Shown here: positions 1-14,381 of the stretch, piece after piece
How positions within the stretch are numbered: position 1 is the first letter of the stretch
How the letters are laid out: each line of letters begins with the position of its first letter
Origin: Smithellaceae bacterium
GTDB lineage: Bacteria; Desulfobacterota; Syntrophia; Syntrophales; JAQULV01
Direction: 5' to 3'
Length of the DNA stretch: 14,381 nucleotides
Assembly (NCBI GenBank): GCA_028718405.1
Contig: JAQULV010000005.1
Span: 1-14,381, forward strand
The notes under the pieces: model-generated
What the model saw: the letters and a program-made list of their open reading frames with translations, nothing else
What the model was told of the DNA's origin: nothing
Databases searched by the model: none
Position numbers and translations under genes: made by a program

Positions 1-431
1 AAAACAGGACGATTGCATGGCGGCAGGCCTTTTTTGAATGGGTTGTCGGGGACATGCCCACGGGATACGGGGATAGGACGCTGGTCAAGCAGGTCTGCTG
101 GAATCTCCTTACCAATGCCGTCAAGTTTACAAAGTACCGGGCGGAGACGAAGGTGGAAGTCGGAGGCTACGCAGAAGGCGATGAACACGTCTTCTTTGTG
201 AAGGACAACGGTGCCGGCTTTGACATGGCTTACGTAGACAAGCTCTTCGGTATCTTCCAGCGCCTCCATAAGAACGAGCAGTTCGAAGGCACCGGCGTCG
301 GCTTGGCTACCGTTCAACGCGTTGTCCTCCGTCATGGCGGCCGCGTCTGGGCGGAAGGAGCCGTTGATCGGGGCGCCTGCTTCTACTTTTCTCTTCCCAT
401 AAAAGGTCATCCACAGCGGATCGTGGACTAA
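1..431 (+). CDS. Sensor histidine kinase, C-terminal ATPase part (5' end outside window)
   Basis: The reading frame is open from base 3 to the TAA at 429-431, and no start is needed inside the window, so this is the tail of a larger gene. The visible 142 residues form a HATPase_c domain: an N box ([10 protein letters not shown]), a G1 box (DNGAGFD), an F box region (LFGIFQRLH) and a G2 box (GTGVGLATV) followed by [10 protein letters not shown]. The IFQRLH...FEGTGVGLA...RHGGR..AEG pattern is typical of phytochrome/Cph1-like and other PAS/GAF sensor kinases. The domain binds ATP and phosphorylates a histidine in the upstream DHp domain, which is not visible. The sensor part is also outside the window, so the signal cannot be named. 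An ATG at 54 is in frame but would cut off part of the fold and is not the start. The following gene begins 11 bases after the stop. Confidence 0.93.
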
Positions 432-442
432 GAGGGTTACCC

Positions 443-1918
443 ATGAAGCCCGTTAATGCTTCCATGCTTTACAATCTGGTTTGCTGTCCCCACCGGGTCT
501 ATATGGATCTTTACGGAGATTATGCGCAGCGCGACCCCGTCAATCCTTTCGTGCAGCTTCTGTGGGAACGGGGCAATGCCTTCGAGGCCGAGGTCATTTC
601 CGGAGTCTCCGCGCCCTTATTAAATCTCAAAGGGAGACTGGCGGAGCAGCGGGTGATCGAAACGATGAAGGCAATGCGCGCGGGCGTGGATCTCATCTAC
701 GGCGGCAGGATAGAGAAAGATGGGTTGATTGGCGAGCCGGATCTGATTAGAAGATGTATGGGCGGCTATGTTGCCGGCGACATCAAAAGCGGCTCCGGCT
801 TTGAAGGGCAGGGTGAGGAAGACGAAGAAGGCAGGCCGAAGAAACATTATGCCGTACAACTCGCCCTCTATACGGATGTCTTGGAAAGATTGGGAGTCGC
901 AGGTGCGAGGAGGCCGTTCATCTGGGACATCCACAGCCGCGAGGTAACTTACGAATTGAATGAGCTTTCGGGGCGAAGGAAGGTCAGCCTCTGGGATGAA
1001 TACCTCTCGGTCCTGGAGCGTGCCCGCAGCATCGTTGCCAAAAAAGAGGTGACGCTTCCCGCCTACGGAGGGCTCTGCAAGCTCTGCCATTGGTATTCGG
1101 CCTGCAAAAAGGCGCTGCTGGAAAGTGACGATCTGACGCTCATCCCCGAGCTGGGGCGCGCCCGGCGCGACGCGATGCTCTGTCGGCTGCCGACCCGACA
1201 CGTCTTTGCCGCCACCGATCCCGCCTCCTTTCTTGAGGACGGGAAAACGATCTTCCCGGGCATAGGGAGAGAGCAACTCTTCAGGTTCCACGAGCGGGTG
1301 AGGCTGCAGATGCAGAAGAACGCTCTTCCCTACGCCAGGGAGCCGCTCCATCTTCCCGAGGCGCCGCGCGAACTCTTCTTCGACGTCGAGACGGATCCCA
1401 TGCGGGATATATGTTATCTCCATGGTTTCGTCGAGCGTACAGGTACGGGCGGCAAAGAAAGATACGTGGCGTTTTTTGCCGACGATCCCCGTGAGGCGGC
1501 GGAGGAGAAGGCCTTTGCCGAGGCCTGGGCCTACGTGCAGGAAAGCCGGCCCTGCCGGATATATTACTACTCCGCTTACGAGCGAACCATCTGGGGCAAG
1601 CTGCAGAAAAAGTATCCTCACGTCGCGTCGGTTGAAGAGATCGCCGCCTTCTTTGCTCCGGAACTGGCCATCGATCTCTATCACCACGTCGTTCGGTCCA
1701 AGACCGAGTGGCCTACCTACGACTACTCCATCAAGACGCTCGCCTCTTTCCTGGGATTTTCCTGGCGCGATGTCAACCCCTCCGGGGCCGCGTCCATCGA
1801 GTGGTATCACCGTTGGCTGGAAACGGGCGATGCCGCCGTCAAACAGAGAATCCTGGATTACAACGAGGATGACTGCCGCGCCATGAGGGTCCTGCTCGAC
1901 AGGCTTCGCGTGCTGTAA
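443..1918 (+). CDS. TM0106-type RecB/Cas4-like nuclease fused to RNase H-like domain
   Basis: A 491-residue protein with two nuclease-like halves. The N-terminal half (about 1-225) has the PD-(D/E)XK layout of RecB/Cas4 proteins: GEPD with D100, GDIKSG with D113 and K115, and a QLALY motif (Q139, Y143). Cysteines at 14/15 and at 212, 215 and 221 are placed as in Cas4/AddB-type [4Fe-4S] nucleases. The C-terminal half (about 308-491) resembles the YprB/RNase_H_2 exonuclease-like fold: FFDVET (D314, E316), YYYSAYE near 374-380, D411, and YNEDDC (473-478). This matches the TM0106 family of putative RecB-like nucleases. A role in DNA processing or repair is inferred from the family; no substrate is known to me. 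No helicase domain and no CRISPR genes are present. The start is ATG with AGAGGG upstream, 11 bases after the kinase stop, so co-transcription is likely. Confidence 0.85.
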   Translation: MKPVNASMLYNLVCCPHRVYMDLYGDYAQRDPVNPFVQLLWERGNAFEAEVISGVSAPLLNLKGRLAEQRVIETMKAMRAGVDLIYGGRIEKDGLIGEPDLIRRCMGGYVAGDIKSGSGFEGQGEEDEEGRPKKHYAVQLALYTDVLERLGVAGARRPFIWDIHSREVTYELNELSGRRKVSLWDEYLSVLERARSIVAKKEVTLPAYGGLCKLCHWYSACKKALLESDDLTLIPELGRARRDAMLCRLPTRHVFAATDPASFLEDGKTIFPGIGREQLFRFHERVRLQMQKNALPYAREPLHLPEAPRELFFDVETDPMRDICYLHGFVERTGTGGKERYVAFFADDPREAAEEKAFAEAWAYVQESRPCRIYYYSAYERTIWGKLQKKYPHVASVEEIAAFFAPELAIDLYHHVVRSKTEWPTYDYSIKTLASFLGFSWRDVNPSGAASIEWYHRWLETGDAAVKQRILDYNEDDCRAMRVLLDRLRVL

Positions 1919-1948
1919 AAAACCTGTCGGGCCGATATCTCCTGTCGA
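1896..1948 (+). repeat. Inverted repeat with two competing right arms
   Basis: TCGACAGG at 1896-1903, inside the last codons of the nuclease gene, can pair with CCTGTCGA at 1941-1948 (8 bp). Its inner seven bases can instead pair with CCTGTCG at 1923-1929. No T-run follows either arm, so this is not a standard intrinsic terminator. It could mark an mRNA 3' end or processing structure, or be chance. Confidence 0.3.
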
Positions 1949-1957
1949 ACCGTCCTA

Positions 1958-1986
1958 TTGACAACAACGGTGAATTGGAAGAAAAT
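1958..1986 (+). promoter_or_regulatory. Candidate sigma70 promoter for hsp20-lon
   Basis: A perfect -35 hexamer TTGACA (1958-1963) is followed by a 17-base spacer and GAAAAT (1981-1986), which matches four of six positions of TATAAT. It lies about 100 bases upstream of the Hsp20 start in the only sizeable gap before the pair. I saw no CIRCE element and no clear sigma32-type promoter, so heat control, if any, is not evident from this sequence. Confidence 0.5.
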
Positions 1987-2087
1987 AACAACATCAAGAA
2001 GTAATCCGCCGCAGGAATGCTTCCCATGAGGTTACCGGCTCGCCATTTAACGCCAAGAAAATCATATCCACCTCCAGGAGTTTACCG

Positions 2088-2534
2088 ATGAACCGTATCA
2101 AGATCAGATTCAGGGACGATTTGGGAAAGGTCGAAGCTGATTTCCGCCGTAGCGTCCATGATATGTTTCAGCTCGTCACCCCGGTACTTACCCATTGTCA
2201 TCGTATCTGGAGGCCGCAGCTGGACATATACGAGACACCCGATGCGGTCATCATCGTGGCCGAGATCGCGGGGGTGAAGAGGGAAGACCTCTTCGTGGAG
2301 ATCGGCAGGCGCAGCATCAAGATCCACGGGAATCGTTGCGAGAGATACCTGACGGAAGGCACTAAGTACGCCTTGGCTGAGATTCCCTACGGTGACTTCG
2401 AGAGGAATATTTCCTTCCCCATGCCGATCAACGTCGATACGGCGATCGCAACTTACGCGGAGGGACTCCTGCAGATCCGCGTCGAAAAATTACCGACCGA
2501 CAAGGTGCACAAGATCAACATCACCAGCGGCTGA
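2088..2534 (+). CDS. Hsp20/alpha-crystallin family small heat-shock protein
   Basis: A 148-residue cytoplasmic holdase chaperone of normal bacterial sHSP size. The alpha-crystallin domain starts at W41-RPQLDIYET, a close match to the usual 'P..DIYET.DA..V.AE..G' start, and runs to about residue 135. It includes AGVKREDL (61-68) and the G-L-L signature near the end (G126-L128). An I-x-I motif (I143-N-I145) in the short C-terminal tail is the element that docks subunits into oligomers. The N-terminal arm (1-40) is variable. The start is ATG with AGGAG at 2076-2080, seven bases upstream. lon follows after 52 bases, so the two are probably one transcript: a holdase that keeps misfolded proteins soluble next to the protease that degrades them. 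The Hsp20 assignment is firm. A specific symbol such as ibpA is not justified. Confidence 0.93.
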   Translation: MNRIKIRFRDDLGKVEADFRRSVHDMFQLVTPVLTHCHRIWRPQLDIYETPDAVIIVAEIAGVKREDLFVEIGRRSIKIHGNRCERYLTEGTKYALAEIPYGDFERNISFPMPINVDTAIATYAEGLLQIRVEKLPTDKVHKINITSG

Positions 2535-2586
2535 TTGTTTGTGAGCGATTACCGCAATCCTATTACTCCATAGCTGGGAGGTCTAA

Positions 2587-4935
2587 ATGGCGGAGCAGAA
2601 ACCCGATGAGTTGAAGGCCGTGAAGATTCCGGAAATCATGCCGATCATGCCTCTTTTTAACGTGGTCGTCTTTCCCAAGATGATGTTTCCCATGGAAATC
2701 TTCGGCGACCAGTCAGCGGCCTTGGTAGACGAGGCGATGTCCAAAGACAGGATTATGGGTCTTCTCGTCTCCAAGAAGACCCACGAGGATCTGCAGTATA
2801 AACCGGAGGATTTCTACAATATCGGAACGTCCGTCGTGATCCTCAAGATGGCCAAGGGAGGCGAGAACCGCGCGCAACTTCTCGTGCAGGGGATCAGCCG
2901 TTTCCGCATCGTGGAGTTCATCGAGGGCAAGCCCTACCTGCAAGCTCGCGTAGAGACGCTGGAAGAGGAAGAAACAAACGATATCGAGGTAGAGGCCTTG
3001 ATGACGAACCTCGTGTCGCTGTTCGACCGGATCGTCAAACTCTCGCCTTTTTTGCCCCAGGAGTTCGCCGTCATCGCGAAGTCCATCACCGATCCGGGAA
3101 TCCTGGCGGACATGGTGGCCTCCATCATCAATTCCGCGACCGAGGAGAAGCAGAAGATCTTGGAACTTATGGATGTGAAGTCCCGTCTGAAAGAAGTGAC
3201 CAGGCTTGTCAACCACCAGTTGGAGATCCTGGAGCTGGGAAACAAGATCCAGTCCCAGGTGAAGGATGATATGGATAAGTCCCAGCGGGAGTATTACCTG
3301 CGTCAGCAACTCAAGGCGATCCAGAAAGAGCTCGGGGAAGGCGAAGACGAGTCGAAGGTTGAGGTCGAAGAGTACGAAGCCAAGATCGCGGCCAAGAACC
3401 TTCCCGAAGAGGCGAAAAAAGAGGCCGAGCGCGAGTTGGACCGCTTGCGGAGGATGCACCCTGCCTCGGCGGAGTACACCGTTTCCTCCACGTATCTGGA
3501 CTGGATCACGTCGCTGCCCTGGAACGAAAGCACCGAAGACAATCTTGACATCAAGAAAGCGAGAAAGGTCTTGGACGAGGACCACTACGGCCTCGAGAAG
3601 GCAAAAAAGAGAATCATCGAGTACCTGGCGGTCCGTAAGCTGAAACCCGACAGCCGCGGGGCTATCCTTTGCTTCGCCGGTCCTCCTGGCACCGGCAAGA
3701 CCTCGCTGGGACACTCCATCGCCCGCGCCCTGGGCAGAAAGTTCATCCGCATCTCGCTGGGTGGTGTCCGTGACGAAGCCGAGATCAGGGGGCATAGGCG
3801 TACTTATGTGGGGGCACTCCCGGGCCGGATCATCCAAGGTCTGCGGCGGGCCGAGTCGAACAATCCCGTTTTTATGCTCGACGAGATCGACAAGGTGGGC
3901 GCCGATTTCCGCGGCGATCCCTCTTCAGCGATCCTCGAGGTTCTCGATCCCGAGCAGAACTTCAGCTTCTCCGATCATTACCTGGACGTCCCCTTTGATC
4001 TTTCCAAGGTGATGTTCATTACGACGGCCAATATCTTAGATACGATCCAGCCGGCGCTTCGGGATCGCATGGAGGTGATCGAGCTTCCGGGCTACACGAT
4101 GGACGAAAAACTCCAGATCGCCGAGCGTTACCTCATCCCGCGCCAGATCGAGGCCAACGGTCTCAAGTCGGAGCAGATCAGCATCAGCCGCAATGCGCTG
4201 AAGGCGATCATCGACGGGTACACGCGCGAGGCAGGGGTCAGGAACCTGGAACGGGAGATCGCCAGTTTGTGCCGCGGCGTGGCCAGTGGAGTCGCCGCCG
4301 GGGACGTGGAAAAACAGGCGATTGCCGCCAAAGACATCCATAAATATCTGGGGCCCGTTCGCATTCCTCCCGAGGTCAGTATCAGGACCACCAAGCCGGG
4401 CATCGCTGTGGGGCTCGCTTGGACGCCGACGGGCGGCGACATTCTCTTCATCGAAGCCACGGCGATGAAGGGGAGAAAGAACCTCACCCTCACGGGGCAG
4501 TTGGGAGACGTGATGAAGGAATCGGCCACGGCGGCCATGAGTTTCGTCCGTGCCAATGCCGCCGCACTCGGGATCAACAACGACTTCTTTGAGGAGAACG
4601 ATATCCACATCCACGTGCCCTCCGGCGCCATTCCCAAGGACGGCCCTTCTGCCGGAGTGACGATCCTCACGGCGCTGACATCGCTCATCACCAACAGGCT
4701 CATCAAGAAGGACCTCGCGATGACGGGAGAGATCACCCTGCGGGGCCTGGTGCTTCCCGTGGGCGGGATCAAGGAGAAGGTCCTGGCCGCCCACCGGGCG
4801 GGGATCAAGACGATCCTGCTTCCCAAATGGAACAAGAACGACCTCGTCGATGTTCCCGTCAAGGTTCAAAAGGATATCGAATTCTTCTTCGTCGATGACA
4901 TGATGGAGGTCTTGAAGCTGGCCTTGGAGAAATGA
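2587..4935 (+). CDS. lon: ATP-dependent Lon protease (LonA type)
   Basis: A full-length LonA of 782 residues, about the size of E. coli Lon (784). It acts as a cytoplasmic homo-oligomeric AAA+ serine protease that degrades misfolded and regulatory proteins. The N-terminal substrate-binding domain begins at the MPLFNVVVFP motif (about 18-210) and is followed by a charged coiled-coil region (about 215-300). The AAA+ module has Walker A GPPGTGKT (365-372) and Walker B FMLDEID (429-435, D432 and E433). The C-terminal protease domain carries the catalytic dyad: S688 in DGPSAG and K731 in GGIKEK, 43 residues apart as in E. coli (S679/K722). No membrane segment is seen, so it is LonA, not LonB. The start is ATG with GGGAGGT at 2577-2583. 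All key residues are intact. Confidence 0.98.
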   Translation: MAEQKPDELKAVKIPEIMPIMPLFNVVVFPKMMFPMEIFGDQSAALVDEAMSKDRIMGLLVSKKTHEDLQYKPEDFYNIGTSVVILKMAKGGENRAQLLVQGISRFRIVEFIEGKPYLQARVETLEEEETNDIEVEALMTNLVSLFDRIVKLSPFLPQEFAVIAKSITDPGILADMVASIINSATEEKQKILELMDVKSRLKEVTRLVNHQLEILELGNKIQSQVKDDMDKSQREYYLRQQLKAIQKELGEGEDESKVEVEEYEAKIAAKNLPEEAKKEAERELDRLRRMHPASAEYTVSSTYLDWITSLPWNESTEDNLDIKKARKVLDEDHYGLEKAKKRIIEYLAVRKLKPDSRGAILCFAGPPGTGKTSLGHSIARALGRKFIRISLGGVRDEAEIRGHRRTYVGALPGRIIQGLRRAESNNPVFMLDEIDKVGADFRGDPSSAILEVLDPEQNFSFSDHYLDVPFDLSKVMFITTANILDTIQPALRDRMEVIELPGYTMDEKLQIAERYLIPRQIEANGLKSEQISISRNALKAIIDGYTREAGVRNLEREIASLCRGVASGVAAGDVEKQAIAAKDIHKYLGPVRIPPEVSIRTTKPGIAVGLAWTPTGGDILFIEATAMKGRKNLTLTGQLGDVMKESATAAMSFVRANAAALGINNDFFEENDIHIHVPSGAIPKDGPSAGVTILTALTSLITNRLIKKDLAMTGEITLRGLVLPVGGIKEKVLAAHRAGIKTILLPKWNKNDLVDVPVKVQKDIEFFFVDDMMEVLKLALEK

Positions 4936-5148
4936 GGGTGGGGCGGGCGAGATTCGCTCCGCGCTGGCATCCTTTCTGCAGTAATCACCTTCCGAAGGGC
5001 GGACTAAAACCCGGGGGTAAAGCGGTTGGTCCTTTCCTTCGGAGTCGTAAACTCCTGACGTAATGGTTCGGCGGTTCCTCTTGGAGGAAGTACTCCACTT
5101 CGGGGCTCCGGGTTTCGGCAGACAAACGAGAAAGCGAGTGCAGGTACC
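4936..5148. other. Gene-free stretch with several small dyads
   Basis: A 213-base gap between lon and the CphA-N/receiver gene with no credible ORF. In the frame of the next gene a TGA at 5056 closes any upstream extension, and there is no good start between it and 5149. The stretch holds a dyad CCTTC-C-GAAGG (4988-4998), GGAGT-5-ACTCC (5041-5055), a perfect 6-bp hairpin TTCCTC-TTG-GAGGAA (5075-5089) and an overlapping GAAGT-5-ACTTC (5087-5101). The last two cannot form together. No T-run follows any of them, so none is an obvious lon terminator. No riboswitch class I know matches, and I found no convincing sigma70 promoter. It may be a structured leader or an unannotated RNA. Confidence 0.4.
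5075..5089 (+). other. Perfect 6-bp hairpin in the leader before the receiver-fusion gene
   Basis: TTCCTC and GAGGAA are perfectly complementary around a three-base TTG loop. It lies 60 bases before the ATG at 5149. The GAGGAA arm is purine-rich, but it is too far upstream to be the ribosome site of that gene. No T-tract follows, so it is not a typical terminator. Confidence 0.35.
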
Positions 5149-6567
5149 ATGACCGAGCCTCAGGAAATCGTCAAATCGAGCGTTTCCGTGTACGAGATCG
5201 AGTTGGACCTCAGTCGCTGGGAATATGCCCATACCGGCGAAGCGCCGAGGTTCTCGGAGCGTCTCTTCCGGATTATCCCCTTACTGAAGGACCAGCGCTG
5301 CCTGACGGCGAAATCAGGTACCTTAGCCGCGGAGGTGGAGAGCGGCACCAGTTTCGCACATGTCATCGAGCACGTGATCATCGAGTTGATCCGTCTTGCC
5401 GATCCTGAAAAAGAGCTGCATGCCGGCTGGACCAGAGAGAAGGCCGATCGGCCGGTGTACGTCGTCCACTACACGGCGCCCGATTTCCTGACGGGGAGAC
5501 TGGCCGCCATTCTGGCCGTTGATCTCGTCAAGCGGGTCATCCGTGAAGAAGAACCTGTTCTCTCCGCGTACGTGGAGTTGATGAAAAATCCACTGCAATA
5601 CTTCACGCAGGATGATGCCATCTCAGCTACCTTCACCAGAACCTGTGAGCCGCTCAGCGTCATCCGGGAGATAAGGGGCGGCCCCGGAGGGATCTCTGCC
5701 GCCAAAGAGGAGATCGGCCTGACGGACGTCCAGATGGAAGACATCCGTACGACGCTGAAGGGTATCCGCAGGCACCTGCCCACCATCAACGACGCCTGGC
5801 GCAATGCGTTCCTCGAGTACAGCGGCAGTTTCGGCCGATCAATCATAGACAAAGTCGAACTGATCAATATCGACAAATTCATCGATTCTCTCGTCCTGGG
5901 CCACTTCCACGTCTTCTACCGCGGCGTCACCAGGGCGGCACAGCTCATCGGTTCCTACCGGATTCCCCCGAACTTCCTTACCCATTCGCTTTGGCTCTAT
6001 AAGAACAAACTCCTCAACTACTTCATCGAGGAGTACCGTTACCAGAAAGACAAGGCAACGCTGGATCGTATCATCAAGGACTTCGAAGATTTCTTCCGCG
6101 TGATCCTGCAGCGGATCCTGCTTGGGTACGTACAGCACAGCCCCGTTCCCGACGAACAGGAGCTGGCGGAACTCACCAAATTCTGCGAGGTCAGCGGGAA
6201 GAAGGGTTGCATCCTGATCGTTGACGATGACGAGATGATCCGCATCACCTGCCTCGATATCCTGGAGTACGAGGGCTATCGCGTGATCCTGGCCAAGGAC
6301 GGCAGTCAGGCAAGGGACGCCTTGGCGAGACGCAAGGACGAGATCACCCTTGTCATCCTGGATCTGATGCTCCCAGGTGAAAGCGGAGAGGAGATCTTTT
6401 CGCAGCTGCGGGCCGTGAAACCTGACCTGAAGGTTCTGGTCATGACGGGCTACTCCCATCTCCTCGAGGGTCTTCAGGTGATTCTGGCCCACGAGGGGGT
6501 CGATTTCATCCAGAAGCCTTTCAGCGCCGAAGGCCTGCTCCGCAAGGTCAGGACCGTCTTGGAATAG
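5149..6567 (+). CDS. Response regulator with CphA N-domain-like region and helical (possibly globin-like) middle
   Basis: A 472-residue soluble protein in three parts. Residues about 10-135 resemble the N domain of cyanophycin synthetase: a GT..HVIEHVIIEL..LA block with an HxxEH motif (H71, E74, H75) and E79, then GWTRE (93-97), VVHYTAP and a helix like CphA's GR.A...AV.LV. The ATP-grasp and Mur-ligase parts of CphA are absent. Residues about 190-329 are helical, with GHFH (251-254) then GV and IGSY, which loosely recalls protoglobin/globin-coupled sensors; this is tentative. Residues 353-472 are a complete receiver: D359/D360, phospho-acceptor D405, T433 and K456. No DNA-binding or enzymatic output follows the receiver, so any output must lie upstream of it. 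ATG at 5149 was chosen because a TGA at 5056 closes the frame; the ribosome site (GCAGG) is weak. Its partner kinase is unknown. Confidence 0.72.
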   Translation: MTEPQEIVKSSVSVYEIELDLSRWEYAHTGEAPRFSERLFRIIPLLKDQRCLTAKSGTLAAEVESGTSFAHVIEHVIIELIRLADPEKELHAGWTREKADRPVYVVHYTAPDFLTGRLAAILAVDLVKRVIREEEPVLSAYVELMKNPLQYFTQDDAISATFTRTCEPLSVIREIRGGPGGISAAKEEIGLTDVQMEDIRTTLKGIRRHLPTINDAWRNAFLEYSGSFGRSIIDKVELINIDKFIDSLVLGHFHVFYRGVTRAAQLIGSYRIPPNFLTHSLWLYKNKLLNYFIEEYRYQKDKATLDRIIKDFEDFFRVILQRILLGYVQHSPVPDEQELAELTKFCEVSGKKGCILIVDDDEMIRITCLDILEYEGYRVILAKDGSQARDALARRKDEITLVILDLMLPGESGEEIFSQLRAVKPDLKVLVMTGYSHLLEGLQVILAHEGVDFIQKPFSAEGLLRKVRTVLE

Positions 6568-6597
6568 AAGGCGTCAAAAAAGTCTCCCGGAAAAAAC

Positions 6598-6626
6598 TTG
6601 ACAGATAGTATCCGCCCGCGTATTTT
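6598..6626 (+). promoter_or_regulatory. Sigma70 promoter of the TetR-efflux operon
   Basis: TTGACA (6598-6603), exactly 17 bases, then TATTTT (6621-6626). This is the strongest promoter-like sequence in the window and sits in the only gap before the operon. Its position also argues against using the TTG at 6598 as the start codon of the TetR gene. Confidence 0.75.
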
Positions 6627-6653
6627 ACTAACTAGTTTAACTAAACGGTTAGT
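6627..6653 (+). promoter_or_regulatory. Probable TetR operator (nested dyads)
   Basis: An AT-rich block directly behind the -10 box holds nested inverted repeats: ACTAAC (6627-6632) with GTTAGT (6648-6653), TAGTT-T-AACTA (6633-6643), and GTTTA-AC-TAAAC (6635-6646). The base composition contrasts sharply with the GC-rich surroundings. Operators of autoregulating TetR proteins are commonly such dyads, and this position would cover the transcription start and block the promoter. Binding by the adjacent TetR protein is inferred. The exact operator boundaries cannot be set from one copy. Confidence 0.68.
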
Positions 6654-6669
6654 ATCGGCAGGGGGCCCT

Positions 6670-7293
6670 TTGGACAGAGCAGCCGAAACTACGGCTAAGA
6701 TCATTGCTGCGGCAACGGAGGTCTTCTCCGAGGCAGGGTTTAGCGGCGCCCGTGTCGATGAGATCGCCGCGCGCTCGGGAGTCAACAAAGCCACCATCTA
6801 TTATCACATCGGCAACAAGAAGGTTCTTTACGGCGAGGTGATGCACAATGTGATGGGCAATCTCGCCATGCATCTGGCCCGCGACGTGAAGGAAGCCCAG
6901 ACGCCGGAGCAGAGGCTCAAAGCTTACGTCCGCAACTTCGTCGCCACGATCAATCTCAATCCCCACCTTCCGCCCATTATCATGAGGGAACTCGCTTCGG
7001 GCGGGAAGAACTTACCCGAGGTGGCGACCAAGGACATGAACGCGGTAGTCGGCATCCTGGCGAGCATCCTTGAGGATGGCGCCACGCGCGGTGATTTCGC
7101 CGTCATGTCGCCGTTCATCGTCCACGCCATGATCCTGGGGGCGATCATCCTCTTTAAGGTATCGAGTCCCATCAGGGCCAGGATAGAGGTCCTTCCTGAG
7201 GAGCTGAAGGGTGATCGCATCTCGCCGGAGGTCGCGGCAGAACTGGAAAGACTCGCCTTGAAGATGGTGAGAGAGGAAAGGCAGAAAGATTAA
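6670..7293 (+). CDS. TetR/AcrR-family repressor, CecR(YbiH)-like position
   Basis: A 207-residue one-component regulator. The N-terminal DNA-binding domain is clear: AAATEVFSEAGFSGARVDEI, then AARSGVNKATIYYHIGNKK (to about residue 51), with the usual Y-Y-H ending of the recognition helix region. The C-terminal ligand-binding helices are not recognisable to a specific subfamily. The start is placed at TTG 6670, with AGGGGG at 6660-6665 just upstream (short, 4-base spacing). The open frame extends back to a TTG at 6598, but that codon is part of the -35 box and the extension would encode the operator, so it is rejected. The outer-membrane channel gene follows 13 bases after the stop. As in E. 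coli cecR-ybhGFSR, it most likely represses itself and the exporter until a toxic ligand binds. Confidence 0.88.
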   Translation: MDRAAETTAKIIAAATEVFSEAGFSGARVDEIAARSGVNKATIYYHIGNKKVLYGEVMHNVMGNLAMHLARDVKEAQTPEQRLKAYVRNFVATINLNPHLPPIIMRELASGGKNLPEVATKDMNAVVGILASILEDGATRGDFAVMSPFIVHAMILGAIILFKVSSPIRARIEVLPEELKGDRISPEVAAELERLALKMVREERQKD

Positions 7294-7306
7294 CAGGGGG
7301 TGTACG

Positions 7307-8659
7307 ATGAAAAGAAAGATGGAGATGATCATTGCCTGGGCGACGGTTTTTCTTCTCTTCCCGGGTTGTCTCTGGGCGCAGTCCGCCGGTCCGATGAGCC
7401 TTAAGGAGAGCATTGATCTGGCTCTGAAGCAGAGCGTCTTGATCCACGCTTCCCGGGAAGGTGTCCGCGGCGCCGAAGCCCAGCAGAGGGAGGCGGCCAC
7501 GGGTTTCCTTCCCAAGTTCAACACTACCTATAGTTACACGCGGCTCAACGATAACCCCCACACCGTGATCGGGCCGCTGCCGCCGCCTATTCCCACGGCC
7601 GCCCAGGCGCAGGTGGGAACAGCCGACAACTATGATTGGACGATCAGCCTGAAGCAGCCCCTCTACACGGGAGGCGCACTCACTGCGAGCTACCGCATCA
7701 GCGAGCTGGGTGCAAATGCTGCCCGGATGGATCAACAGACGGTGACAAGCGATACGGTCCAGGATGTGACGGTTTCTTATTTCAACATCCTGAAGGCGCA
7801 AAAGATCCTGGGCGTCGCCAGGCAATCCGTGGAGCAGCTTCAGGCCCATCGCGATGTTGCCCAGGATTTCTTCGACGTAGGGCTGATTCCCAGAAACGAT
7901 CTCCTCCAGAGCGAGGTGCAACTCGCCAACGGCCGACAGTTTCTCGTGCAGGCGGAAAACGGAGTGGAGCTTGCCAAGGCGAGGTTCAATACTCTTTTGC
8001 GCCGCGACATTGAGACGCCCCTGGAGGTGGAAGACATCATGACCTATACACCCTTCGGGAAGAGCATCGAGGAGTGTCTGCGGATCGCCCTGCAGAACCG
8101 AACGGAGCTGAAGTCATACGCCTTGAGACTGGAGCAGGCCAAGGCGGGCGTGACGCTCGCCCGCAGCGACTTCTTTCCCAAGCTGAACCTCATGGGGAAC
8201 TACGAGCGTTTCGGAGACCATCCCAATGTGGAAGGAAGCTATTATAAGGACCGAGAAACCTGGTACGTCATGGCCGTCGCCAGTTGGGATTTCTGGGAAT
8301 GGGGTCGGACGAAGGACCGCGTGGATGCAAATCTTGCGCGCGAAAACCAGGCCTCGGACGTGCTGATGAACGTAAGAGACCAGATTACCCTAGAGCTGAA
8401 GAACGCCTTCCTGATGCTCCGGCAATCCGAAAAGCAGGTCGGCGTAGCGAAGAAAGCCATCGAACAGGCCGAAGAGAATTTCCGCATCAACGAGGAGCGT
8501 TACAAGGAGCAGGTGTCGACCTCGACGGACGTAATCGACGCCCTGACACTGCTCACCAGAGCCAAATCGGACTATGCGGGAGCCCTGGGCGACTTCTGCA
8601 TCAGCCGGGCGCGACTGGAAAGGGCCATGGGTGTCATCTACGGGGGAGAAGACAAATAG
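7307..8659 (+). CDS. TolC-family outer-membrane efflux channel protein
   Basis: A 450-residue protein with a hydrophobic N-terminal export signal (residues about 7-24, likely cut after CLWA). It then has the two tandem OEP repeats of TolC-like proteins: SLKESIDLALKQS (about 30-42) opens the first half, and SIEECLRIALQNRTEL (about 253-268) opens the second. Each half has long alternating helices and a beta segment, for example FNTTYSYTRL and LNLMGNYERFG. Trimers form the outer-membrane barrel and periplasmic tunnel that receive substrate from the adaptor. A cysteine at 21 follows FPG, but the lipobox is poor, so lipoprotein processing is doubtful. The start is ATG with AGGGGG at 7295-7300. The stop (TAG 8657-8659) overlaps the ribosome site of the adaptor gene, which indicates tight coupling. 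E. coli ybhGFSR itself has no channel gene; here the channel is supplied in the operon. Confidence 0.93.
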   Translation: MKRKMEMIIAWATVFLLFPGCLWAQSAGPMSLKESIDLALKQSVLIHASREGVRGAEAQQREAATGFLPKFNTTYSYTRLNDNPHTVIGPLPPPIPTAAQAQVGTADNYDWTISLKQPLYTGGALTASYRISELGANAARMDQQTVTSDTVQDVTVSYFNILKAQKILGVARQSVEQLQAHRDVAQDFFDVGLIPRNDLLQSEVQLANGRQFLVQAENGVELAKARFNTLLRRDIETPLEVEDIMTYTPFGKSIEECLRIALQNRTELKSYALRLEQAKAGVTLARSDFFPKLNLMGNYERFGDHPNVEGSYYKDRETWYVMAVASWDFWEWGRTKDRVDANLARENQASDVLMNVRDQITLELKNAFLMLRQSEKQVGVAKKAIEQAEENFRINEERYKEQVSTSTDVIDALTLLTRAKSDYAGALGDFCISRARLERAMGVIYGGEDK

Positions 8660-8671
8660 GGGAGGATTCCA

Positions 8672-9838
8672 TTGAAGAAGCGCATCGCTATCGTTATTTT
8701 TCTGGCCCTTCTCGTCGGGGTGGCACTGCTCGTCTACTTCGGGCAGTGGAAGACGAAACAGACTGAACTTTACTACTCCGGCACCATCGACGCCCGGCAG
8801 TCCAACCTCGCCTTCCAGGCCGGGGGCCGTGTCCGTTCCGTTCTGGTCGATGAGGGCCAGGCAGTTCAGGCAGGGCAGGTCTTGGCCGAGCTGGACAGCG
8901 CCGAGTTTCAGTCGCGCTACGAGCAGGCGCAGGCCAACCTGGACAGAGCGGAGAAGGGCAAGCAGCAGTTGGAGACGATGCTGGAGGTTTACCGAAAGAC
9001 CCTTCCTGCCGATGTCGCCCGCGCGGAGGCGGGGAAGAATGCCCTGAAGGCCCAGTTGGACGAATTGCGGGCCGGCAGCCGTATCCAGGACCTGCAGAGG
9101 GCAAATCAGGCCGTGCTCGCCGCCCAGGCCGTCATGGACGACGCCAAGAAAAATCGGGACAGGATAGGGCTTCTCTTTGCCAAAGGCGTTGTCTCCGATA
9201 AGGACAACGACGCGGCCAATCTCAAATATGAGACGTCGCTGCGCGATTATGAGCGTGCTAAAGAAACCTATGATCTGCTCAAGGAAGGTGCTCGGCCGGA
9301 GACAATACGCTCGGCCGAAGCGCGGCTGGCGGAAGCGGAGGCGGTGCGACGCCAGGCGCAGAGCAATCTGAAGAAGATTGACGCGACGGTGAAGGAGATC
9401 GAAGGGGCAAAGTCTGCGGTGCAGGCCGCCCGTGCCGTTTTGGGCCAGGCTGCCATTCAGCTTACCTACGTGCAACTGAAGGCGCCGTTCGCGGGGATTA
9501 TTACGAGCCGGGATGTGGAACCGGGAGAGGTCGTGAACCCCAGCCGCGAATGTCTGTCCCTGGCCGATCTTTCGCGGGTCGATCTCAAGATCTTCGTCCC
9601 CGAGACGGAGATCGGCAAAGTCAGGCCCGGCCAGAAGGCGACGGTTAAGATCGATACCTTTCCTGGACGCGACTTTCCGGGGGTCGTAACCTTCGTTTCC
9701 CCCGAGGGGGAATTCACACCGAAGATGATTCAGACCAAGAAAGAAAGGGTCAAGATCGTTTATCTCGTCAAGGTCTCTATTCCCAACCCCAGCTTGGAGT
9801 TGAAATCGGGGATGCCCGCCGATGCCTGGCTCGAATGA
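8672..9838 (+). CDS. HlyD/YbhG-like periplasmic adaptor (membrane fusion) protein
   Basis: A 388-residue adaptor linking the inner-membrane ABC transporter to the TolC-like channel. A single N-terminal membrane anchor spans residues 4-22, with KK before it and no lipobox. The first lipoyl half follows (about 43-77, QAGGRVRSVLVDEGQAVQAGQVLAEL, with D75). A long alpha-hairpin rich in A, E, Q and R heptads covers about 78-262. The second lipoyl half is at LKAPFAGIITSRDVEPGEVV (269-288), then beta-barrel and membrane-proximal parts. The long hairpin and the ELRAG / EGARPE repeats fit YbhG/YhiI-type adaptors. The start is TTG at 8672, supported by a strong GGGGAGG six bases upstream and the K-rich anchor start; there is no ATG nearby. 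Its end overlaps the first ATPase gene by 17 bases. Confidence 0.93.
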   Translation: MKKRIAIVIFLALLVGVALLVYFGQWKTKQTELYYSGTIDARQSNLAFQAGGRVRSVLVDEGQAVQAGQVLAELDSAEFQSRYEQAQANLDRAEKGKQQLETMLEVYRKTLPADVARAEAGKNALKAQLDELRAGSRIQDLQRANQAVLAAQAVMDDAKKNRDRIGLLFAKGVVSDKDNDAANLKYETSLRDYERAKETYDLLKEGARPETIRSAEARLAEAEAVRRQAQSNLKKIDATVKEIEGAKSAVQAARAVLGQAAIQLTYVQLKAPFAGIITSRDVEPGEVVNPSRECLSLADLSRVDLKIFVPETEIGKVRPGQKATVKIDTFPGRDFPGVVTFVSPEGEFTPKMIQTKKERVKIVYLVKVSIPNPSLELKSGMPADAWLE

Positions 9839-10586
9839 TCCCTTTGTCCGGATCGATGATGTCTCCATGAACTTCGGTACGATCGAGGCCGTGCGGGGGA
9901 TAACGCTGGGAGTCCCGGCGGGAGCCACCTTCGGTCTGGTCGGCTCCGATGGCGCCGGCAAATCGACGCTGCTGCGTATGATCGCCACGATGATCAGGCC
10001 TGCCGCCGGTGCGATCACCATCGGCGGTCTTGACGTCGTTACCGATAAGAGAAAGGTCAAGCGTCTCATCGGCTATATGCCGCAGCGCTTCGGCCTGTAC
10101 CAGGATCTCACCGTCGCCGAGAACATGGATTTCTTCATGAACATCTTCGGCATTTACGGCGCCGAGCGGGAGAAGAGGAGGGAGCGTTATCTGGGCTTTT
10201 CCAATCTCTTGCCCTTCCTGGAGCGCCGCGCCGGCGATCTGTCGGGAGGGATGAAGCAGAAATTGGGGCTTGCCTGCGTCCTCGTCCACGAACCGAAACT
10301 CCTGATCTTAGATGAACCAACCAACGGCGTGGACCCCGTCTCACGACAGGAATTCTGGGAAATCCTGGGCGAGATGCGCGGGAGCGGCATGACGATCATC
10401 GTTTCGACGGCCTATCTGGACGAGGGCGAGAGATGCGACGGGCTTGTCCTCATGCACAGAGCTTCCCTGCTGGCAAAGGCGACGCCCGCGGAGCTGCGCG
10501 ACGGCTATCCCAATCTTGAAGAGGCGATCATCGCCCGTATTCAGGAGGTGGACAAGGGGATCATCCATGATCGTTTCCACTTCTGA
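9822..10586 (+). CDS. ABC transporter ATPase 1 (YbhF N-half-like), switch histidine missing
   Basis: A 254-residue nucleotide-binding subunit. It has Walker A GSDGAGKST (41-49), Q-loop Q88 (MPQRF), a canonical signature LSGGMKQ (140-146), Walker B LLILDE (160-165) and D-loop GVDP. The switch region reads VSTAYLDEGER, so alanine 197 replaces the usual catalytic H-loop histidine. The same STAY-type switch is, from memory, usual in the N-terminal ATPase half of YbhF/RbbA-like double ATPases. It corresponds to the first half of YbhF, encoded here as its own gene. The start is ATG 9822, inside the end of the adaptor gene; no later start fits before the first strand (FVRIDDVSMNFG). It should pair with ATPase 2 and power the two permeases. 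Confidence 0.92.
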   Translation: MPGSNDPFVRIDDVSMNFGTIEAVRGITLGVPAGATFGLVGSDGAGKSTLLRMIATMIRPAAGAITIGGLDVVTDKRKVKRLIGYMPQRFGLYQDLTVAENMDFFMNIFGIYGAEREKRRERYLGFSNLLPFLERRAGDLSGGMKQKLGLACVLVHEPKLLILDEPTNGVDPVSRQEFWEILGEMRGSGMTIIVSTAYLDEGERCDGLVLMHRASLLAKATPAELRDGYPNLEEAIIARIQEVDKGIIHDRFHF

Positions 10587-11325
10587 AGCGATAGTTGTGA
10601 GGGATTTGGAGAAACGCTTCGGCGCCTTTGTCGCCGTAGATCGGATCAGCTTCTCCGTGCGCAAAGGTGAGATCTTCGGATTCCTGGGCGCCAACGGGAG
10701 CGGCAAATCAACCACGATCCGCATGCTCTGCGGTATCATCACCCCCACCTCCGGCCACGGCACCGTCGCGGGCCATGACATCTTCACGGAGGCCGAAGAG
10801 ATCAAACATTCCATCGGCTACATGTCGCAGAAGTTCTCTCTTTATGAAGACCTCACCCCTTGCGAAAATCTGCGTTTCTATCTCGGTATCTACAGCGTCC
10901 CCGAGGAAACGTGGAAAGAGAGGATCGAATGGATCCTCGAAATGGCGAACCTGAAAGACCTGAGGGATCGGGTCACCAAGGAACTGGCACCCGGCTGGCG
11001 TCAGCGGCTGGCCCTGGGCTGCGCGCTGCTGCACAAACCCGATATCCTCTTTTTGGACGAGCCGACCTCGGGCGTCGATCCCGTGACCCGCCGCCACTTC
11101 TGGGAGTTCATCGGTCAACTCGCCGGTGAGGGGATCACCGTCTTCGTGACGACCCATTACATGGACGAAGCTCATAACTGTCAGCGGATCGTCATGATCA
11201 ACGAGGGAAGGATCGTCGCCCAGGGGAGCCCCGCGGAGATCGTGGCGAACACCTGCCCGGAACTTCCCAACGCCGATCTGAATAGCGCCTTCATCAAGCT
11301 GATGAAGCGGAGGGACGACCGATGA
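10567..11325 (+). CDS. ABC transporter ATPase 2 (YbhF C-half-like), degenerate signature
   Basis: A 252-residue nucleotide-binding subunit. It has Walker A GANGSGKST (41-49), Q-loop Q88 (MSQKF), Walker B ILFLDE (160-165) and an intact switch histidine H197 (TTHYMDEA). The signature is LAPGWRQ (140-146) in place of LSGGxxQ, so the serine that contacts the partner's ATP is missing. It is the mirror image of ATPase 1, with conserved elements at identical residue numbers. The start is placed at ATG 10567, with AGGGGA at 10555-10560. A longer frame from 10444 would add 41 residues read out of frame through ATPase 1, with no ABC similarity, and is rejected. The gene overlaps ATPase 1 by 20 bases, and its stop overlaps the ATG of the first permease. 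Confidence 0.92.
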   Translation: MIVSTSEAIVVRDLEKRFGAFVAVDRISFSVRKGEIFGFLGANGSGKSTTIRMLCGIITPTSGHGTVAGHDIFTEAEEIKHSIGYMSQKFSLYEDLTPCENLRFYLGIYSVPEETWKERIEWILEMANLKDLRDRVTKELAPGWRQRLALGCALLHKPDILFLDEPTSGVDPVTRRHFWEFIGQLAGEGITVFVTTHYMDEAHNCQRIVMINEGRIVAQGSPAEIVANTCPELPNADLNSAFIKLMKRRDDR

Positions 11326-12455
11326 ACCCGCGCAAGATCAAGGCCGTCATGGACAAGGAGATATACCATCTCCTGCGCGACTACCGAAGCCTCTACCTCG
11401 CCTTTGCCATACCTCTGATCTTGATTCTTCTTTTCGGCTACGCCTTGAGCCTCGATGTGGACAACATCGAGACGGTCGTCGTCGATTACGATGGGACCGA
11501 CCTCAGCCGCGACTTTATCGACCACCTGGATGCCTCTTCATATTTCCACGTGCGGGCCTATCTTCCGAGCGATGCCTTGGCAAATCGTTATCTGGACCGG
11601 GGACTGGCGATGGTAGCCGTTGTCATCCCCCCCCACTGGACGAAAGACCTGCGCGCCGATCGGACGGCACCGCTGCAAATCCTCCTCGACGGGTCCGATC
11701 CCAATTTCTCCAACATCGCCCGCGGCTACATCAACAGCTTCGTCGAGATGTACAACCAGAAGTTGCTGGCCGATTTTCTCAACCGCCAGGGGATGGATAC
11801 GATCAAGCCTCCCCTGGAGGGAAGGGTGCGGGTTTGGTTCAACGAGGACTTGGAGAGCCGCAACTTCATCATCCCCGGCATCATCGCCGTAATCATCATG
11901 ATCGTTGGTGCGATCCTCACGTCGCTCGTTATCGCCCGGGAGTATGAGAACGGCACGATGGAGACGCTCAAGTCGCTGCCGCTCAGCGCCGGAGAGCTTC
12001 TCGCGGGCAAGGCGATCCCCTATTTTTTTATCACCCTCGTAAACGTTCTGATCGCCGTTCTTATGGGGCAGGTGCTTTTCGGGATCGTCATGAAATCCAG
12101 CTTCTGGCTGATGATCGGCGCCTCTGTTGTCTATATCCTGGTGGCCCTGATGCTGGGGCTGCTCATCTCGATCGTTACGAAATCTCAACTGGTGGCCAAC
12201 CAGATGGCCATCCTGATCACGTTTCTGCCCTCGATGCTGCTTTCCAATTTCGTCTTCCCCGTTTCCAACATGCCGCCGGCGCTGCAACTCGTCACCAAGA
12301 TCGTTCCGGCAACCTACTACATAGACATCTTAAGCGGCATCTATCTGAAGAACCTGGGGATGGCTCATCTGTGGCCGAATTTCGCCGTCCTTTTCACGAT
12401 GGCTGCTTTGCTTGGCTTCCTCAGTTTTACGCTGCTGAAGAGGGAGGGCCTCTGA
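11322..12455 (+). CDS. ABC-2 type permease 1 (YbhS/YbhR-like)
   Basis: A 377-residue inner-membrane subunit of the ABC2_membrane_3 (YhgE/YbhS-like) type. One membrane helix (about 24-43) is followed by a periplasmic domain of about 135 residues (45-180; VVVDYDGTDLSRDF, ILLDGSDPNFSNI). Then come five further helices (about 182-205, 229-255, 261-285, 295-314 and 350-372). The cytoplasmic coupling motif REYENGTMETLKSLPL (206-221) matches the family consensus RExExGTxExLxxxPL. Late motifs SNFVFPVSNMP and PATYYIDILSGIYLKNLG are also typical. It forms the transport path with permease 2. The ATG overlaps the ATPase 2 stop by four bases, with GGAGGG at 11309-11314. Which of YbhS or YbhR it corresponds to cannot be decided here, and substrates are unknown. 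Confidence 0.92.
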   Translation: MNPRKIKAVMDKEIYHLLRDYRSLYLAFAIPLILILLFGYALSLDVDNIETVVVDYDGTDLSRDFIDHLDASSYFHVRAYLPSDALANRYLDRGLAMVAVVIPPHWTKDLRADRTAPLQILLDGSDPNFSNIARGYINSFVEMYNQKLLADFLNRQGMDTIKPPLEGRVRVWFNEDLESRNFIIPGIIAVIIMIVGAILTSLVIAREYENGTMETLKSLPLSAGELLAGKAIPYFFITLVNVLIAVLMGQVLFGIVMKSSFWLMIGASVVYILVALMLGLLISIVTKSQLVANQMAILITFLPSMLLSNFVFPVSNMPPALQLVTKIVPATYYIDILSGIYLKNLGMAHLWPNFAVLFTMAALLGFLSFTLLKREGL

Positions 12456-12456
12456 G

Positions 12457-13578
12457 ATGAGCTGGCTGCGCATTCGCGAACTGGTGAGGAAGGAATTTAT
12501 CGCCCTTTTCCGGGACAGGAAGATCAGGCCCATCCTGATCATCGCCCCTGTCGTCCAGTTGATGGTCTTCGGCTACGTCGTCAATTACGACATCAGCAAC
12601 GTCAGGCTGGCTGTTCTCGACCAGGCCCGGACAAAGGAAAGCAGGATGATCATAGATGCCTTCCGCGGCAACGGTACCTTCGAGATCGTGGGCTACCCTC
12701 ACGATCAAAAGGAACTGGAAGGAATGCTGCTGGCAGGGAAGGTGGACCTGGGCGTGAAGCTGGCACCCGATCTCAGCCGCAAGATTCGCGGCGGCGATAC
12801 CTCCCCCGTTCAGATACTTGCCGACGGCTCCATGAGCAACATGGCGGCGGTCCGTATCGTCTACAGCTTGCTTGTCGTCGATCAGGTCAACCGCGGGTTG
12901 CTGCGCGAACTCCACCCGCAGCACCTGGGATACGGCCGCATCGACGCCAGGATCCGCAGTTGGTACAACCCCAACAACTACAGCCGCTACTTCTTCGTGC
13001 CCGGAATCGTCGCCTTTTTAATCATGCTGATCTCCCTTCTGCTCACCTCGATTGCCATCATCAAGGAGAAGGAGGCAGGGACCATCGAGCAGCTGATCGT
13101 GACGCCGCTCCGCCCCATCGAGATGATCATCGGCAAGACCATTCCGTATATCGTCATCTCCTTTGCGCAGATGCTCACCGTTACCGTCATTGCCCTCCTC
13201 TGGTTTCAGATCCCCCTGGTGGGGAGCATCACGCTTCTGTTTTTCGCCACCTGTCTTTTTCTCTTGAGCACTTTAGGAGCGGGGCTTTTCATCTCGACAA
13301 TTTCGTCGACCCAGCAGCAGGCGATGATGACAACCTTCTTCGTCATCGTTCCGTTCTTCATGCTTTCGGGATTCGTCTTTCCCATTGTCAACATGCCTAC
13401 CTTGGTCCAGTGGCTCACCTATTTGAACCCTCTGCGCTACTTCCTGGTCGTCATCCGCGGCATCTTTCTCAAGGGGATCGGGATCGATATCCTCTGGCCG
13501 CAGTTTCTCGCCCTGGCGATCCTGGGTTTTGCAGTTTTTGCCGGTGCGGTGGGGCGTTTCCGCAAGCGACTCGACTGA
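12457..13578 (+). CDS. ABC-2 type permease 2 (YbhR/YbhS-like)
   Basis: A 373-residue partner of permease 1 with the same plan. There is a first helix (about 25-43), a periplasmic domain (about 45-175; LAVLDQARTKESR, ILADGSMSNMA), then helices at about 180-202, 228-250, 256-281, 291-311 and 344-365. The coupling motif KEKEAGTIEQLIVTPL (203-218) and the late motifs SGFVFPIVNMP and NPLRYFLVVIRGIFLKG are typical of the family. Two different permeases together with two different ATPases suggest an ABC exporter with two-sided asymmetry. The start is ATG one base after the previous stop, with AGGGAGG at 12441-12447. It is the last gene of the efflux unit. No intrinsic terminator with a T-run is visible in the 80 bases after it. 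Confidence 0.92.
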   Translation: MSWLRIRELVRKEFIALFRDRKIRPILIIAPVVQLMVFGYVVNYDISNVRLAVLDQARTKESRMIIDAFRGNGTFEIVGYPHDQKELEGMLLAGKVDLGVKLAPDLSRKIRGGDTSPVQILADGSMSNMAAVRIVYSLLVVDQVNRGLLRELHPQHLGYGRIDARIRSWYNPNNYSRYFFVPGIVAFLIMLISLLLTSIAIIKEKEAGTIEQLIVTPLRPIEMIIGKTIPYIVISFAQMLTVTVIALLWFQIPLVGSITLLFFATCLFLLSTLGAGLFISTISSTQQQAMMTTFFVIVPFFMLSGFVFPIVNMPTLVQWLTYLNPLRYFLVVIRGIFLKGIGIDILWPQFLALAILGFAVFAGAVGRFRKRLD

Positions 13579-13658
13579 ACATCTTATCCTTGTAAAAGCA
13601 GCGGAAATATTATAGCAATAGGCACCGATATGCATCTCAACACGCGGAGTGCAGGGCT
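13579..13658. other. Gap after the efflux operon, weak promoter-like bases only
   Basis: 80 bases, AT-richer than the flanks. TTGTAA (13590-13595) and TATAGC (13611-13616) sit 15 bases apart, a poor spacing for a sigma70 promoter; TATTAT at 13608-13613 is too close to the same -35. No hairpin with a T-run is present, so read-through from the efflux operon into the next gene is possible. Confidence 0.3.
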
Positions 13659-14381
13659 ATGCTGAAGATTGTCGACGATCCGGAAGCCATCCTCAAGTAC
13701 CAGCAGCGTCTTGTTAAAACCCTGAAACCTTATTGGGACGAGAAGATCCCCGTGAAGATCGGCCATCCCGGGGCGAACTTCGCGGCCAAGATCTTCTATT
13801 CGATGGAGCTTGGTCTCTGGATGTATTCCCGTGCCGAGGAGGGCTTCTTCTGGAATGCCTTCGGCACCGGCCGCCCCCGGGAGGGAGCCTCGTTATCCAT
13901 TACCTGCGAGATCAATTTCCCGACCCGCGGGATCGACAGAAAGATCGGCGGGGGCCTGGCAAAAGACGGGAAGGGAAGGATCTACGTTGTGCACCGCGGC
14001 AAGATAGGCGGCGGTAAGAAAGGCGTAGGGAAAGCCCTCTTTGAGAAGCATTATCGGGGCGTGTGGGCCGTCATGGAAGACGGCGACGCCGAAACCCCCG
14101 TCGCCCTCATCGGCGCCCTATCGACTCCCCGTTTCATCAGGCAGCTTGTGTCCTTCGTCCGCAAGGTGGACCGCATCAAGGGACTCTCCGCCCCCGCCTC
14201 GCCGCAGCTGGAGATCGGCTTCGAGGAAGGATCCTTCAGCGAGGAATTCACGGGGATGAGGTACTGCGAGCTGGAGCGCGACCTGGAGCGGGAGAGTGAC
14301 TACGTCCTGGTCGTCTCCGATCTGGCCTCCTCCCTCACGCGCCGCGGTCTGCGGGTGAGAAACGACAGTGTCCGGGATCTC
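13659..14381 (+). CDS. Unrecognised protein, 3' end outside window
   Basis: The frame is open from ATG 13659 to the last base (241 codons, no stop). CAGGG at 13652-13656 lies very close to the ATG, so the ribosome site is only fair. Codon use and third-position GC match the neighbouring genes, and the protein looks real. Visible features are a W/F/Y-rich stretch (SMELGLWMYSRAEEGFFWN, 48-66), then ITCEINFPTRGIDRKIGGGL (81-100), RIYVVHRGKIGGGKKGVGKA (107-126) and RGVWAVMEDGD (133-143), with VSFVRKVDRIK near 164-174. The Gly/Lys-rich GKIGGGKKGVGK segment suggests a binding loop, but the Walker A serine/threonine is replaced by alanine and no Walker B is seen. There is no signal peptide or membrane helix in this part. 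The function is unknown to me, and it may be unrelated to the exporter upstream. Confidence 0.72.
   Translation, partial: MLKIVDDPEAILKYQQRLVKTLKPYWDEKIPVKIGHPGANFAAKIFYSMELGLWMYSRAEEGFFWNAFGTGRPREGASLSITCEINFPTRGIDRKIGGGLAKDGKGRIYVVHRGKIGGGKKGVGKALFEKHYRGVWAVMEDGDAETPVALIGALSTPRFIRQLVSFVRKVDRIKGLSAPASPQLEIGFEEGSFSEEFTGMRYCELERDLERESDYVLVVSDLASSLTRRGLRVRNDSVRDL

Follow-up and report, generated by a model that had tools for sequence, protein, structure and literature searches.

A single open reading frame (ORF) of 472 residues, at positions 5149-6567 (+) of a 14,381-nucleotide stretch of Smithellaceae bacterium DNA (assembly GCA_028718405.1, contig JAQULV010000005.1, positions 1 to 14,381 of the forward strand; hereafter the window), looks like the gene of a signal-controlled peptidase in bacteria whose genomes, as far as searched, gave no gene for cyanophycin synthesis. 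We consider it somewhat probable that its product is a response regulator with a small zinc metallopeptidase as output, phospho-gated via a heme-free globin and acting on a substrate other than home-made cyanophycin. An earlier note made from the sequence alone, with correct coordinates and frame, had described a cyanophycin synthetase (CphA) N domain outside its enzyme and joined to a receiver. Both domains were recognised by Pfam, PF18921 (Cyanophycin synthase-like N-terminal domain) at residues 17-131 (E 5e-19, 68.8 bits against a cut-off of 27) and PF00072 at residues 355-467 (E 1.6e-20); nothing else in the 472-residue protein was matched at E ≤ 1 in this search, in which HMMER filters remove most matches above about E 0.1. 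Since the PF18921 match covers profile positions 2-114 of 115, the CphA-N likeness is not confined to one short helix, a restriction that the earlier note had considered. The note read the homology of the N domain correctly and overlooked two elements, namely the Cx19HxxEH motif of a predicted active site within that domain and a globin-fold domain between it and the receiver. The features are as follows.

5149..6567, + strand: whole gene (472 residues), with a CphA-N-like, predicted peptidase domain, a globin-fold domain and a receiver domain
5185..5607, + strand: CphA-N-like domain, residues 13-153 (Pfam, sequence matches to solved structures, AlphaFold model)
5197-5541, + strand: PF18921 match, residues 17-131 (Pfam, E 5e-19)
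5299..5301, + strand: Cys51, predicted third metal ligand, equivalent to SuCphA1 C59 (alignment and PMC9262961)
5359..5373, + strand: H71-x-x-E74-H75, predicted metal-binding HxxEH, equivalent to SuCphA1 H79, E82 and H83 (same sources)
5383..5385, + strand: Glu79, second-shell residue, equivalent to SuCphA1 E87 (same sources); Glu in 41/45 members
5725..6135, + strand: globin-fold helical domain, residues ~193-329, probably heme-free (fold and profile match)
6211..6549, + strand: receiver domain, residues 355-467 (PF00072)
6361-6363, 6445-6447 and 6514-6516, + strand: receiver sites, that is, phosphoacceptor D405, T433 and K456

Conservation of the predicted active site

A search with residues 1-345 against 5.8 billion proteins gave the 50 listed proteins, query included, that we treat as the family; motif counts use all 50, and the other residue counts a 45-member alignment from which P0008, P0011, P0013, P0029 and P0038 were left out. 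PF18921 and PF00072 occur together in 49 of the 50, the exception (P0032) being a 314-residue protein with PF18921 only, and all 45 aligned members matched PF18921 at E ≤ 0.01. Solved cyanophycin synthases were the only significant sequence matches of residues 1-160, the next match having E 0.081. The comparison with CphA structures, made here by sequence, likewise agreed with the note: in a single-sequence search of solved structures residues 17-131 matched 7wac (E 1.2e-9) and 7lg5 (E 5.1e-8), and a profile of 8 family members matched the solved synthases (7wac/7lg5/7txv) with E 8.4e-17. The NCBIfam cyanophycin synthetase model TIGR02068 was matched only at model positions 18-150 of 862, with 69.3 bits against the 850 required, and its ATP-grasp and Mur-ligase part was unmatched.

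PMC9262961 describes the CphA1 N domain as an endo-cyanophycinase with a cryptic metallopeptidase-like site, whose motif is Cx19HxxEH; the statement of the earlier note that this domain handles the polymer chain was thus incomplete. According to that paper, the site has H79, H83 and C59 as ligands of a metal, tentatively identified as zinc, and E82 as the general base. The E82Q variant is without primer-independent activity, which is reduced or abolished in H57A, whereas R100A is the sole mutant there without lowered activity; the isolated N domain is active in trans. CphA1 cuts the chain several times more slowly than it polymerises it, and binds it with the help of residues of the M domain.

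The window protein carries exactly this motif, C51-x19-H71-x-x-E74-H75, plus E79, the equivalences to CphA1 residues being obtained by profile alignment to solved structures and by counting from the numbering in PMC9262961. In the alignment, E74 and H75 are invariant (45/45), H71 is kept in 44, and C51 and E79 in 41 each. The full motif occurs in 45 of the 50 listed proteins and HxxEH in 49, query included, and in 48 and 52 of 53, respectively, when three N-domain proteins from short contigs are added. Moreover, the N domain is the best-conserved third of the protein (mean top-residue frequency 0.67, compared with 0.54 for the globin part and 0.55 for the receiver). Because the metal ligands and general base of CphA1 are kept, the module more likely hydrolyses a substrate than merely binds one, and the suggestion of the earlier note that it may bind or act on a substrate is shifted toward acting.

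Around the motif, the CphA1 second-shell set H57/F67/E87 together with R70, as given in PMC9262961, is only partly present in the window protein, which keeps E79 and has Q49, L59 and E62 at the other positions. As the family mostly has His (40/45) and Phe (44/45) at the first two of these, the window's own copy may be weak. The position of the substrate-contact residue R70 is Glu62 in 44/45 members, and the substrate therefore probably differs from that of CphA1, which weakens the Asp/Arg-rich peptide proposed in the note. The R100 position is Trp94 in 44/45, a change made less telling by the unlowered activity of R100A, and the E90 position is R82 in the window protein and His in 27/45.

Globin-fold domain and receiver

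A fold search with the whole AlphaFold model gave only receivers among the matches listed, and the middle part (residues ~193-329) was therefore folded alone; the resulting model is a globin fold. In a pairwise profile comparison, this domain matched protoglobins with E 8.9e-5, four control pairs giving 0.04-0.5. Neither Pfam globin model reached its cut-off: PF11563 (Protoglobin) had no match in 8 middle fragments at E ≤ 10 and none in the window's genome, and PF08678 (RsbR N) scored 13.6 bits against the 27 needed and, at E ≤ 0.001, matched nothing in that genome. A globin-profile sequence search of solved structures gave a single chance-level match (E 0.17). The aligned proximal position is His in 29/29 protoglobins; the corresponding family column (residue 267), assigned from one profile alignment, has His in 0/45 members and I/L/V/A/M in 45/45, and the nearby column 265 has His in 7/45. 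Judged from this alignment, the domain is probably heme-free, and heme sensing was set aside for want of His in the aligned column.

The receiver is complete, as the earlier note had held: D405 is Asp in 42, T433 is Ser or Thr in 44 and K456 is Lys in 44 of the 45 aligned members, and the receiver fold, acidic pair, phospho-Asp, Thr/Ser and Lys of a response regulator are all found. Within a distance of a few kb, genes for kinases or receivers occur in the window and at two of the other seven family loci (L010 and L015), and the absence of a constant partner among the loci suggests the behaviour of an orphan regulator. The window has a HATPase_c piece at 54-428. At L015, a 1084-residue ORF (9391-12645), just downstream of the family gene on the same strand, has a receiver-like end, is perhaps a hybrid kinase and is a possible partner kinase.

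Distribution and genomic context

Across the listed proteins and the genome samples, the architecture is real, conserved and patchily distributed. The few named sources include Syntrophales, Syntrophus, Deltaproteobacteria and one each of Planctomycetota, Gemmatimonadales and Candidatus Krumholzibacteria. A single-sequence scan of genome contigs gave no relatives and an alignment-based scan gave 8 loci; L017 was dropped, its match being to the receiver only (query 352-472). The full-length alignment matched 63 of 100 related genomes, mostly through other receivers, with at least 4 full-length matches; later genome searches used the N and globin parts only. In the window's order, the family was present in 6/155 genomes, the window's own included, and an N-domain-only match, in longer frames resembling CphA, in 2/155; no genome among these 155 had both the family and a CphA-like N-domain match at E ≤ 1e-8. 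An even phylum sample gave the family in 1/395 (the window's own genome) and N-domain-only matches in three others (open frames of 886-908 residues), and the phylum of the Gemmatimonadales carrier gave 1/80. Only three stand-alone N-domain proteins were seen, which are probably cut-off genes, since all lie on short contigs (930-1279 bases) and are close to the query (53-56% identity). Among plasmids, 80% query coverage was reached in 0 of 1224 matching records, and all eight matches listed begin at query residue 260 or later. In a tree of N domains, 45 from the family and 4 from CphA (with L040, the fifth CphA-like locus, left out because the motif pattern missed it), the groups separate on long branches, the CphA clade having a support of 1.0; the root is uninformative, since the family clade has a value of 0.046 at the midpoint root.

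The window's genome (~86% complete) has one PF18921 match, the gene itself, and two carriers outside the order (L015 and L016) have a single match each. Cyanophycin synthetase over the cut-off was found in 0/6 carrier genomes of the order, which are 78-98% complete; partial matches below the cut-off, present in all six, include the family proteins and synthetase-part stretches in other open frames. Cyanophycinase, searched in these six, was over the cut-off in 0/6, with one sub-threshold match, and the isoaspartyl peptidase PF01112 was found in 0/6 (2/8 carriers overall), the M38-type isoaspartyl dipeptidase lying outside the search. The remark of the earlier note that no cyanophycin genes are visible nearby thus held, and its proposed genome check for cphA and cphB gave neither over the cut-off in the six carriers.

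The neighbourhood profiling that the note had also proposed yielded no constant partner: neighbours vary among the window and seven other family loci, as read from ORFs over at most about 5-8 kb per side, with Pfam on a few only. For this reason, the Lon, phasin-like and efflux neighbours are not counted as functional evidence. In the window, an Hsp20-like and a lon-like ORF (2587-4935), named from translations and together spanning 2088-4935, immediately precede the gene on its strand and were not recognised at the other family loci read; positions 443-1915 encode a RecB-like nuclease with RNase_H_2 (PF13482) and PDDEXK_1 (PF12705), which we take to be TM0106-type; and, judged from translations, 6598-13578 is likely an efflux operon, in which ORFs resembling TolC, HlyD, an ABC ATPase and two ABC permeases come after that of a TetR-type regulator. 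At L010 (5412-5747) and L011 (4601-4936), a phasin-looking 111-residue protein with no Pfam match lies upstream of the family gene, and at L011 a PhaC-like alpha/beta hydrolase is also close.

Readings of function and known systems

In the phospho-gated peptidase that we favour, a histidine kinase would phosphorylate D405, and the change in the receiver would be relayed through the globin-fold domain, which resembles RsbR-N and globin-coupled sensors and has no heme-binding His; this domain may itself sense something. The relayed change would open or close the CphA-N-type active site, in which C51, H71 and H75 would hold zinc and E74 would act as the general base, so as to hydrolyse a peptide or isopeptide bond, the substrate being a cytoplasmic one that is not cyanophycin made by the cell itself. 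The domain make-up, the conserved motif, the globin fold (by model and profile) and the lack of an over-cut-off cyanophycin synthetase or cyanophycinase in six carriers were observed, and from them zinc, catalysis, gating, cytoplasmic location and substrate class are inferred. The protein itself should be cytoplasmic, because its conserved N domain lies near the protein start and it carries a receiver. The more specific proposal, plausible and somewhat short of probable, is an undescribed class of regulator in which an inverted-zinc peptidase of ~140 residues is phospho-gated through a heme-free globin and has a conserved, non-cyanophycin intracellular target. An open-licence PMC search (titles and abstract starts, with subscription journals and preprints outside it) gave no description of the architecture, and we know of no response regulator with a zinc peptidase output.

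Several points weigh against a gated peptidase. No single kinase gene is constant beside the window gene and the seven other family loci, the incompleteness of the carrier genomes limits the CphA negative, and even for CphA1 the metal was called zinc only tentatively in PMC9262961. The M domain, whose residues help CphA1 to bind the chain, is missing here. Further, CphA1 H57 and F67 are replaced by Q49 and L59 in the window copy, five of the 50 relatives are each short of one motif residue (four the Cys, one the first His), and CphA1 cleavage is slow; these last three points would also suit a non-hydrolytic metal- or peptide-binding module, that is, a zinc or peptide sensor or an adaptor whose signal the receiver or globin relays. 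We regard such a module as rather unlikely, given that a pure metal-binding site does not need the general base E74, invariant in all 45 members.

A true endo-cyanophycinase scavenging cyanophycin from other organisms would share its motif and domain with CphA1; this is improbable in view of the expected cytoplasmic location, the lack of an over-cut-off cyanophycinase in the six carriers searched and the scarcity of PF01112, and the replacement of R70 and E90. Slightly more improbable is a stressosome-like partner-switching regulator, in which the globin and receiver act and the N domain only aids assembly, as Pfam reports no STAS domain in the protein and the N domain is its most conserved part. 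Least probable, and very much so, is a role as adaptor or helper, under phosphorylation control, for the Lon protease encoded next door: the lon-like and Hsp20-like ORFs adjoin the window gene, but Lon was not recognised at the seven other loci (L010-L016), where ORFs were read by eye over the same distances. Were the gated peptidase correct, two-component signalling would be coupled directly to proteolysis at the post-translational level, and the "cryptic" CphA1 peptidase site would exist outside cyanophycin, which bears on its origin; CphA would either have its N domain in common with a broader family of peptidases or have acquired it from such a family. The substrate question is within reach of ordinary biochemistry.

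Compared with known systems, the closest likeness is to the CphA1 N domain (PF18921; PDB 7lg5, 7txv, 7wac), with homology over the whole domain, Cx19HxxEH and E79 at the place of E87. The family proteins differ from CphA1 in having globin and receiver domains after the N domain, no ATP-grasp or Mur-ligase domains, and conserved Glu62 and Trp94 for R70 and R100. The HxxEH inverted zinc motif is common to the M16 inverzincins (pitrilysin, insulin-degrading enzyme), to which a distant relation of the CphA1 site is proposed in PMC9262961. With the RsbR N-terminal non-heme globin and the heme globin-coupled sensors, the middle domain has the globin fold in common, as well as the profile match to protoglobins; it differs from them in reaching the cut-off of neither PF08678 nor PF11563, in its lack of a conserved proximal His and in sharing its chain with a receiver and a peptidase-like domain. 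Finally, CheB is a response regulator with enzymatic output, and regulators of its type likewise carry a receiver and a hydrolase-like domain in one chain; here, in contrast, the receiver is C-terminal, the predicted output is a metallopeptidase, and a globin lies in between.
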